A DNA stretch of 64,000 nt from Gemmatimonadota bacterium. GTDB lineage: Bacteria > Gemmatimonadota > Gemmatimonadetes > Palauibacterales > Palauibacteraceae. The DNA lies in assembly GCA_022826685.1 (NCBI GenBank), contig JAJDUL010000035.1, forward strand, positions 1 to 64,000, written 5' to 3'. Positions 47,968 to 49,574 of the stretch are shown here, piece after piece (position 1 is the stretch's first letter; the number at the start of each line of letters is the position of its first letter). The notes beneath the pieces are model-generated. The model saw only the letters and a program-made list of their open reading frames with translations. It was not told the origin of the DNA and ran no database searches. The translations under genes were made by a program, and so were the position numbers.

Positions 47968-48211
47968 AGCCAACTTCGACCCCGGAGTGATCGTGAGGGC
48001 CCTCCGCTTCCGGGCGAAACTCGATGGATTTCGGCTCGAGCGCGGCCACTACATGGATCGGCCCGAGGATCGCGCGGACCGCTGGTACGTCGTTCCGCTG
48101 GGAAACAGCGACGCCTCGCGCTCCGGAGACGGTTTCCCGACGATCAAGGAGGCGGCCGCCGAAGCAGAGCGCCTCCGCAAGCTCCGCGAAGCTTCCCCGC
48201 CCGAGGACTAG
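47960..48211 (+). CDS. small hypothetical protein (83 residues)
   Basis: Predicted 83-residue protein starting at GTG 47960. It reads MSKANFDPGVIVRALRFRAK, then HYMDRPEDRADRWYVVPLGN, then a helical TIKEAAAEAERLRKLREA end. The residue pattern (beta hairpins followed by a helix) looks like a genuine small fold, but I recognise no family. It lies just upstream of the tRNA-Gln promoter. An 8-nt overlap with the 35-residue frame suggests coupled translation. Confidence 0.5.
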   Translation: MSKANFDPGVIVRALRFRAKLDGFRLERGHYMDRPEDRADRWYVVPLGNSDASRSGDGFPTIKEAAAEAERLRKLREASPPED

Positions 48212-48276
48212 CGCTCCACCGCGGCGACCCCGGCGGACGGCCCCCGGTCCCACCGCCCATCCATCGAAACCGCCGC

Positions 48277-48305
48277 TTGAAGCGCCGACCCCCCTCAAGT
48301 ATTAT
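48277..48305 (+). promoter_or_regulatory. promoter of the tRNA-Gln/tRNA-Ser cluster
   Basis: TTGAAG at 48277-48282 and TATTAT at 48300-48305 are separated by 17 bp, an ideal bacterial spacing. The expected transcription start is near 48312, about 18 bases before tRNA-Gln. This is the best promoter match in the window, and it is AT-rich against a GC-rich background. It may drive all of the tRNAs up to 48932. Confidence 0.75.
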
Positions 48306-48329
48306 CGACGCCCCAACTCATTGGGACGT

Positions 48330-48402
48330 TGGCCCGTGGTGGAATTGGCAACACGTCTGGCTCTGGACCAGAAGATTCCAGGTTCGAGTCCTGGCGGGCC
48401 AA
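48330..48402 (+). tRNA. tRNA-Gln (anticodon CTG)
   Basis: The acceptor TGGCCCG pairs with CGGGCCA, followed by discriminator A. The anticodon stem TCTGG/CCAGA encloses the loop CTCTGGA, giving anticodon CTG. The T-arm CCAGG/CCTGG has loop TTCGAGT. Length is 73 nt, with no encoded CCA. It is the first tRNA after the 48277-48305 promoter. Confidence 0.97.
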
Positions 48403-48422
48403 TCACGACAGCAGGATTCTGC

Positions 48423-48508
48423 GGAGGGGTGGCCGAGTGGCTTAAGGCGGCGCCCTGCTAAGGCGTTGACTCGAAAGAGTCTCGTGGGTTCGAATCCCAC
48501 CCCCTCCG
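48423..48508 (+). tRNA. tRNA-Ser (anticodon GCT)
   Basis: A type II tRNA with a long variable arm (GACTCGAAAGAGTC). The acceptor GGAGGGG pairs with CCCCTCC, with discriminator G. The anticodon loop CTGCTAA gives GCT for AGC/AGU codons. The T-arm has stems GTGGG/CCCAC around TTCGAAT. It lies 20 bp after tRNA-Gln. Confidence 0.97.
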
Positions 48509-48542
48509 CCTCCCTACCTCCGGCCTCACCCCGGAGGCTTCC

Positions 48543-48630
48543 GGACGGGTGGCCGAGCGGACTAAGGCGCACGCCTGGAGAGCGTGTGGGCAGCAACCCT
48601 GCCTCGTGGGTTCGAATCCCACCCCGTCCG
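48543..48630 (+). tRNA. tRNA-Ser (anticodon GGA)
   Basis: A type II tRNA of 88 nt. The acceptor GGACGGG pairs with CCCGTCC, with discriminator G. The anticodon loop CTGGAGA gives GGA for UCC/UCU codons. The variable arm is TGGGCAGCAACCCTGCC-like. The T-arm GTGGG/CCCAC has loop TTCGAAT. Its T-arm and 3' end are copied just downstream, in interrupted form, at 48669-48749. Confidence 0.97.
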
Positions 48631-48641
48631 TTTAGCAGTTT

Positions 48642-48677
48642 CCCACGAGGCAGTGCGAAAGCGCCTGCCCTCGTGGG
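48642..48677 (+). repeat. inverted copy of tRNA-Ser segment forming a hairpin
   Basis: CCCACGAGGCAG at 48642-48653 is the exact reverse complement of tRNA-Ser(GGA) positions 48599-48610. It faces a direct copy, CTGCCCTCGTGGG (48665-48677), with one extra base. The two arms would fold with an inner GTGC-GAAA-GCGC tip, a stable tetraloop type. The segment joins tRNA-Ser(GGA) to the interrupted 3'-end copy. Confidence 0.75.
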
Positions 48678-48749
48678 TTCGAACCGAGCGACCGCAGGTC
48701 GCGAGCTCGGCGAACCCGCGTAGCGGGTGAGCCAATCCCACCCCGTCCG
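48669..48749 (+). repeat. tRNA-Ser(GGA) 3'-end copy interrupted by insert A
   Basis: The left 15 bp (48669-48683, ending GTTCGAA) and right 14 bp (48736-48749, TCCCACCCCGTCCG) exactly match tRNA-Ser(GGA) 48602-48616 and 48617-48630. Between them lies a 52-bp insert (48684-48735) that starts CCGAGCGACCG and ends GAGCCAA. The break is between TTCGAA and TCCC, inside the T-loop. The insert contains CCGAGC/GCTCGG arms and an ACCCGC-GTA-GCGGGT hairpin. Confidence 0.85.
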
Positions 48750-48850
48750 CCCCGAAAGTTTGACAGCAGGAGCCATCTCGGAGCACCTTCCCCGGCCGCG
48801 TCTACCGGCCGCTTCGGCAGCTTCCGAGAGCAGCCCGGTAGCCGGCACTC

Positions 48851-48932
48851 GGAGAGGTGGCAGAACGGCAATGCACCGGTCTCGAAAACCGGCGCCCTCA
48901 CGGGCTTGGGGGTTCGAATCCCCCCCTCTCCG
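48851..48932 (+). tRNA. tRNA-Ser (anticodon CGA)
   Basis: A type II tRNA of 82 nt. The acceptor GGAGAGG pairs with CCTCTCC, with discriminator G. The anticodon stem CCGGT/ACCGG holds the loop CTCGAAA, giving CGA for UCG codons. The T-arm GGGGG/CCCCC has loop TTCGAAT. Two interrupted copies of its T-arm and 3' end follow directly (48938-49017 and 49023-49144). Confidence 0.96.
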
Positions 48933-48937
48933 CTAAC

Positions 48938-49017
48938 GGGGGTTCGAACCGAGCGACCGCAGGGAGCGAGCTCGGCGAGCCCCGCGCAGCGGGGTGAAGC
49001 CAATCCCCCCCTCTCCG
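48938..49017 (+). repeat. tRNA-Ser(CGA) 3'-end copy interrupted by insert B
   Basis: GGGGGTTCGAA (48938-48948) and TCCCCCCCTCTCCG (49004-49017) match the T-arm and 3' end of tRNA-Ser(CGA). Between them is a 55-bp insert (48949-49003) that starts CCGAGCGACCGCAGG and ends GAAGCCAA, homologous to insert A. It carries a GCCCCGC-GCA-GCGGGGT-type hairpin. It is followed by CTAA and a second copy at an 85-bp period. Confidence 0.85.
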
Positions 49018-49022
49018 CTAAA

Positions 49023-49144
49023 GGGGGTTCGAACCGAGCGACCGCAGGGAGCGAGCTCGGCGAGCCCCGCGCAGCGGGGTGAAGCCAACCGAGCGACCGT
49101 TGGTCGCGAGCTCGGCGACCGTAGGGAGCCAATCCCCCCTCTCC
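49023..49144 (+). repeat. second interrupted tRNA-Ser(CGA) 3'-end copy with tandem inserts C1 and C2
   Basis: GGGGGTTCGAA (49023-49033) is followed by insert C1 (49034-49088), identical to insert B over all 55 bp. A shorter relative, C2 (49089-49132, 44 bp), follows directly and also starts CCGAGCGACCG and ends AGCCAA. The T-stem closes with TCCCCCCTCTCC at 49133-49144. Two inserts in tandem within one tRNA fragment show that insertion or expansion occurred more than once. Confidence 0.82.
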
Positions 49145-49226
49145 TGCGCCCCACCGGCTCTGCGCCTAGTGAAACCGCAGGGCGTCAAATAGGTTATGAC
49201 ATGAACCTGTGTGCGGCGGTAACCTG

Positions 49227-49574
49227 GTGAATCTCTTATCCGTCGCGCTCGCGTTCACTGTGTGCTTCGGCACGCGCTGCTGGATACTGGACGGACCGCG
49301 CGTCACGGAGATCGATGAAGCCTCCGCCGACACGCTCCAGAGCTGGTTCATCGGCGATTTCGGCGCCGATACGCTGTGGGTCGGCCAGCGTGGCCGGATC
49401 ATCCATGCCATGAACAAGGAAACCGGTGAACGGGCGACCATCGACCGGCTGCTCGTTCGGGTCACCCGTCATGGCGGAGAGAGTTCGGAGACACCTCTCC
49501 GACCCCGGAGTCGACGCGACCCGGCGCCCCCACGCCCGAGACGCCTGCATCGCAGCACCCGCTACAAGGGCTGA
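49227..49574 (+). CDS. hypothetical protein with hydrophobic N-terminus
   Basis: Predicted 115-residue protein from GTG 49227. It starts [20 protein letters not shown], a possible signal or anchor, followed by [20 protein letters not shown] and [16 protein letters not shown]. The last 30 residues are Arg/Pro-rich and overlap the convergent queC stop by 13 bp, so the true end may be less constrained. No family is recognised. A nine-codon frame from ATG 49201 ends in TGA overlapping this GTG, and TAGGTT lies at 49190-49195. Confidence 0.4.

Follow-up and report, generated by a model that had tools for sequence, protein, structure and literature searches.

The attL and attR sites of tRNA-integrating islands and phages place a second copy of the 3' end of a tRNA behind a gene that is itself intact. 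The window analysed here, a 64,000-nucleotide stretch of DNA from a Gemmatimonadota bacterium, carries three such copies behind tRNA-Ser genes, each interrupted within the T-loop. This raises the question of what the interrupted copies are and how they came to lie beside intact tRNA genes.

Split tRNA-Ser copies in the window

The copies lie within a plus-strand run of tRNA genes, Gln(CTG)-Ser(GCT)-Ser(GGA)-Ser(CGA), and all features of the window described here are on that strand. A promoter-like site, based on a consensus match only, lies upstream of tRNA-Gln (48277-48305), and a search for terminators of the intrinsic type found no such site in 48200-49400, where only 0.6 would be expected by chance. 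The intact parent tRNA-Ser(GGA) occupies 48543-48630 (Rfam limits, with ARAGORN within 1-2 nt). Behind it lie an antisense piece, CCCACGAGGCAG (48642-48653), which is the reverse complement of the parent's variable arm and T-stem at 48599-48610 in 12 of 12 positions, and a sense copy of the end of the variable arm, the 5' strand of the T-stem and TTCGAA (48665-48683). These are followed by a 52-nt insert with two hairpins in the T-loop (48684-48735) and by the copied tRNA-Ser(GGA) 3' end, TCCCACCCCGTCCG (48736-48749).

The parent tRNA-Ser(CGA), also intact (48851-48932; Rfam limits, ARAGORN again within 1-2 nt), is followed by two copies, with a unit size of 85 nt. The first consists of the sense 5' strand of the T-stem with TTCGAA (48938-48948), a 55-nt insert (48949-49003) and the 3'-end copy TCCCCCCCTCTCCG (49004-49017). 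The second begins with the same sense segment (49023-49033) and holds a 55-nt insert (49034-49088) identical to the preceding one, a 44-nt insert in tandem with it (49089-49132) and a decayed 3'-end copy, TCCCCCCTCTCC (49133-49144). The 44-nt insert adjoins the CCAA of its neighbor, whereas the other inserts in the window adjoin TTCGAA. No CCA is encoded in the 3'-end copies.

The preliminary description of this locus was accurate in its account of three partial tRNA-Ser 3' ends behind their own parents, one for GGA and two for CGA, all split between TTCGAA and TCCC. It was equally correct that the four inserts (52, 55, 55 and 44 nt) are related, all beginning CCGAGCGACCG and finishing AGCCAA, with two of them identical and one pair in tandem, and that the outer T-stems are kept across the inserts (GTGGG/CCCAC and GGGGG/CCCCC). 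It made no mention of the parent-derived antisense piece that many units contain.

At the gathering cut-off, Rfam identified tRNAs and no other family in the window. With the threshold relaxed to E<=10 over 48520-49180, candidates such as sX4, plastid UTRs and mascRNA appeared; most of them overlap the genuine tRNA genes, every one scores far below its cut-off, and they were rejected. Archaeal tRNA introns occur at 59/60, the same T-loop position as the inserts. However, the copies in the window lack the tRNA 5' half, which rules out both split tRNA genes and an archaeal-type T-loop intron.

Many arrays, including that in the window (49133-49144) and those at L060, L017, L019, L083 and L123, finish with a broken unit, often truncated inside an insert hairpin, a pattern that looks as though extension or repair had halted at that point.

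T-loop inserts in Candidatus Palauibacter

When the 3.28-Mb genome to which the window belongs was searched with the insert core at up to three mismatches, the four places in the window matched without mismatch and one other place matched with three. A reversed control gave no match, thus the window inserts are not a product of chance. DNA and pattern searches in the first 12 genomes of Candidatus Palauibacter, which is taken as the genus of the window, revealed the same arrays in the majority. A covariance model built from 22 inserts, with the tRNA letters left out, matched 15 of 17 Palauibacter genomes, at 65 places with E<=0.01. Directly preceding 51 of these 65 matches is TTC[A/G]A(A), and five more were counted as tRNA-copy context (three tandem inserts, one with a mutated T-loop and one cut by Ns), for a manual count of 56 of 65. 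The split copies derive from eight tRNAs, namely Ser(GCT, GGA, CGA, TGA), Ile(GAT), Met(CAT), Leu(TAA) and Gly(CCC). The earlier suggestion of a site-specific repeat or a copying process on tRNA genes gains backing from the 51 matches placed right after a T-loop across these eight tRNAs.

A few copies in the genus lack the 3' end (G010:C57 and G021:C42). No intact parent was seen next to the Gly copy or next to one of the Leu copies. Nine of the 65 matches lie outside tRNA copies. Seven represent one conserved non-tRNA sequence (G000:C65, G001:C18:85153, G002:C24, G003:C61:42395, G005:C47:54158, G020:C148 and G021:C28), and G006:C196 appears to be a chance match. At positions 330-381 of G006:C242 (L059), an insert stands free near tRNA-Arg(CCG), with CAA on both sides and no tRNA copy.

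These placements bear on whether the inserts are instead a mobile palindromic repeat, of REP or MITE type, that aims at T-loop palindromes and has landed in pre-existing tRNA fragments. Like REP/BIME-type repeats, they are short, GC-rich hairpin modules found in tandem; some are joined as CAA-CCGAGC (window, G005:C6 and L099), one copy stands free by tRNA-Arg (G006:C242), and the hairpins are poor in G-U pairs. Unlike such repeats, however, the inserts are tied to tRNA T-loops rather than dispersed: all four copies in the window's own genome sit at this one locus, and 51 of 65 matches across the genus follow a T-loop. A few eroded tRNA fragments without an insert were seen in the genus. A mobile repeat of this kind is therefore an unlikely source of the units, if one that retains some plausibility.

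The arrangement of the block itself is revealed by the Ser(GCT) locus. In four genomes without a unit, the native flank follows directly after the tRNA, while in five genomes with a unit (one of them partly deleted) another linker follows the tRNA and the native flank appears only after the copy; in G004 the flank is unrelated. Comparison of the empty and filled sites suggests that a block was inserted between the T-loop and the 3' end, although an insertion just behind the gene would read identically because the 3' end is repeated. It is probable that the units are RtT-type repeats, that is, DNA blocks lodged in the T-loop of tRNA genes. Such a block would supply its own copy of the tRNA 3' end, leaving the tRNA intact, and would move the original 3' end farther downstream, separated from the tRNA by a linker, in many cases an antisense piece, a short sense T-stem and at least one hairpin insert. 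Arrays may then grow by recombination between identical 3' ends.

The same empty and filled sites at Ser(GCT), together with the directly repeated tRNA 3' end and the larger insertions that by eye seem to split some relatives' tRNA-Ser loci, would also fit eroded att-site remnants of tRNA-targeting elements, which re-supply the 3' end and leave a second 3' end at their far border. Yet the same hairpin insert occupies the T-loop of the distal copy across distant phyla, the units are short and in many cases arranged in tandem, the antisense piece is found repeatedly, and a search of viral_contigs with the insert pattern gave 0 matches. Moreover, the att core in the distal copy is interrupted, the T-loop being split in three of three window copies. 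In comparison to attL and attR, the units thus add a split T-loop, a hairpin insert and an antisense piece while leaving no room for genes, and an origin as integration scars is improbable. Should blocks lodged in the T-loop be the correct reading, tRNA 3'-end copies need not be the scars of phages or islands.

The larger insertions that apparently split tRNA-Ser loci have junctions at L019, L025 and L026, with the tRNA side at L020, L022 and L052. One junction repeatedly reads GGCGGGGAGGCGGACACCCC, possibly the end of an integrative island.

Outside the genus, none of seven other Palauibacteraceae genomes matched a broad pattern. The same pattern matched 37 of 249 genomes of the phylum. Among 32 places outside the genus, 27 were inspected and 26 had no tRNA within 1.2 kb; the exception, L217, has a tRNA and belongs to a contig resembling those of Palauibacter. 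L220 lies where its contig begins and contains tRNA-like letters. RHO2_bin_50 (L093 and L217), a MAG titled Gammaproteobacteria, bears a Palauibacter-like tRNA-Ser array and is either mislabelled or a mixed bin.

Relation to the rtT repeat and units in other bacteria

Where the preliminary description found no named element to match, the anatomy proves to match the rtT repeat of E. coli (RtT, Rfam RF00391), though the score is below the cut-off. In the tyrT-tyrV region of E. coli K-12, where four RtT matches score 132.9-137.5 bits, each repeat consists of a changed antisense T-arm, sense GGTTCGA, an insert beginning CTCGAGCG and continuing into hairpins, and AATCC, running on to CACCACCA. Like the window units, rtT lies behind a tRNA, carries a sense T-stem with TTCGA followed by a hairpin insert with CGAGCG near its start, and ends with the tRNA's 3' end from the T-loop on; tandem units are common to E. 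coli rtT and to the arrays of the window and the genus. The antisense T-arm piece of rtT has a short counterpart in the GGA unit of the window and none was found in the CGA units. The window units differ further in their Ser tRNAs, the lack of CCA and their shorter inserts, while the genus spans many tRNA types.

RtT is described as an RNA set free from the tyrT transcript, and a part in the stringent response has been proposed for it; the accessible parts of these papers treat its role in E. coli as tentative and state no origin (PMC4986893, PMC8092127, PMC2965389). Other tRNA operons have already been mentioned for RtT (PMC4986893), and the same literature places two RtT near Asn and Lys tRNA genes and reports that 80% or more of Pasteurellaceae species have RtT (PMC4986893, PMC8092127, PMC2965389). 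A link beyond tRNA-Tyr is thus not itself new. A resemblance of rtT to enterobacterial elements belonging to BIMEs has also been noted (PMC2965389). Within this literature, whose coverage mostly excludes subscription papers, no account was found of the T-loop-split design with an antisense piece or of units in Gemmatimonadota.

The RtT model, with a cut-off of 45 bits, gave no match in the window even at E<=10, and none over the cut-off in the 17 Palauibacter genomes, where the best unit reached 19.7 bits. At E<=10 these genomes gave 31 weak matches, and five of the best six were full-length split-T-loop units (17.7-19.7 bits, E 0.5-1.4), comprising four related Ser(TGA) units and one Ser(GCT) unit. 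The top match and three matches in the window's own genome fall outside units, the RtT model contains tRNA-derived letters, and 4 of 14 control genomes also match at this threshold.

A wider distribution was evident from a stringent pattern, which matched 46 stretches of genome_contigs in Palauibacter, other Gemmatimonadota-labelled MAGs, Wenzhouxiangella and its kin, Lysobacterales, one Bacteroidales MAG and a few others. Two matches (L113 and L117) look like chance matches in coding DNA. The units in this set are located behind tRNAs for Thr, Arg, Ser and Glu; those of Proteobacteria mostly bear the tRNA's CCA, and a terminator-like hairpin forms part of several. In Wenzhouxiangella XN79A a unit accompanies about five of the 43 tRNA matches (Thr TGT, Thr CGT, Arg ACG, Ser GGA and Glu TTC), and the tandem spacing in the other bacteria inspected is 145-213 nt. 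In 369 genomes of the class of XN79A, the Gammaproteobacteria, a looser pattern had 37 matches (34 distinct places) in 15 genomes, in comparison to two matches for the reversed pattern. Manual reading found tRNA-linked units in nine of the 15 genomes and matches without a tRNA in six.

Artefacts of metagenome binning could in principle account for such arrays, as some relatives' contigs end within them (G005:C6 and G005:C54) and runs of N interrupt others (L017 and L061). Units occur, however, in many separate assemblies, including records without a MAG label such as Wenzhouxiangella XN79A, and the class is present in the complete E. coli K-12 genome, which makes an artefact highly improbable, even as exact copy numbers in MAGs stay uncertain.

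When 143 genomes of the class of XN79A were searched with the RtT model, 26 matched at E<=0.001 and seven exceeded the cut-off, E. coli being the sole match at that threshold among the 14 controls. At 24 of the 30 RtT loci a tRNA is followed within 1.3 kb by a copy of its 3' end (Ser 13, Gln 7, Tyr 3 and Glu 1, with two loci sharing one array); the remaining six have no 3'-end copy. Of 13 loci of the class that were scanned, one, a Ser(CGA) unit, exceeds the cut-off. RtT loci near tRNAs with 3'-end copies, in combination with the weak Palauibacter matches, suggest that RtT-like units are a general tRNA-linked form. From the shared design of the sequences we infer a common descent of the window units and rtT, the units of the window most likely representing a divergent branch of RtT-like units.

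Antisense pieces, hairpins and possible roles

RtT-like units from Gammaproteobacteria, Gemmatimonadota and one Bacteroidales contain copies of tRNAs for ten amino acids (Ser, Ile, Met, Leu, Gly, Thr, Arg, Glu, Gln and Tyr). More tentatively, RtT may be one branch of cross-phylum T-loop cassettes that carry antisense to their parent and either act on the tRNA or spread selfishly at a safe site that is always repaired. Given the empty and filled sites and the many natural variants, the origin and function of rtT become testable. The window units would be co-transcribed with the Gln-Ser-Ser-Ser cluster, judging by operon context, and could be freed by tRNA processing in analogy to the annotated E. 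coli RttR RNA.

One possible role is that of a regulatory RNA whose antisense piece would pair with the parent tRNA and change how that tRNA matures or folds. Of 62 distinct units, 41 show an inverted match to the parent of at least 9 nt, and in three of the 41 the match is itself a palindromic tRNA hairpin. A match of 12-17 nt that is not a tRNA hairpin in its own right occurs in 31 units; it is directed mainly at the variable region, the T-stem and the T-loop, and in 30 of the 31 it exceeds the match to the rest of the unit. At Thr(TGT), the antisense piece and the 3' end track the parent's changes in six of six aligned loci, which speaks for the RtT-type reading of the units. The antisense piece of GGA type is present in seven of seven aligned genus loci including the window, and in the Ile and Thr alignments the antisense piece is less variable than the linker. 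Both the frequency of these matches and this lower variability are in line with a regulatory RNA. The same complementarity could, however, arise from copying history alone, and no inverted match of at least 9 nt was found in seven Palauibacter units with a Ser(CGA) parent, those of the window included. Furthermore, by eye, the unit stands behind a terminator-like hairpin at several Wenzhouxiangella loci.

Folding of the inserts likewise argues against such a role. The hairpins are kept, with 88% of cells paired and a covariation score of 0.057 compared to at most 0.007 when slid; 2 of 14 hairpin pairs change on both sides, a number attained by 131 of 500 shuffles. G-U pairs make up 30 of 1215 hairpin pairs on the sense strand and 136 of 1310 on the reverse complement, and their scarcity on the sense strand does not favor a role of a sense-strand RNA. 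The sense strand is the more stable in 36 of 62 inserts and the antisense strand in 26 (21 and 11 among the 32 inserts grouped as Palauibacter). With no bias of folding towards the sense strand and no clear sign in these sequences of selection on a sense RNA, a regulatory RNA acting on the parent tRNA is a rather unlikely explanation of the units.

At one Ile locus (L079; G001:C18), the T-arm of the parent has changed to TGG...CCA, while the unit retains the TAG...CTA of other species; this unit, out of step with its parent, suggests that the copies are not constantly rewritten. In some second units of Wenzhouxiangella (L099, L118 and L119), the short spacer between the antisense and sense T-arm is swapped for a similar stretch of about 80-100 nt, reading AATCGTnCCACC...GCCGAAGGC...CACCTCAG, and these long-spacer units are perhaps a longer form of the element.
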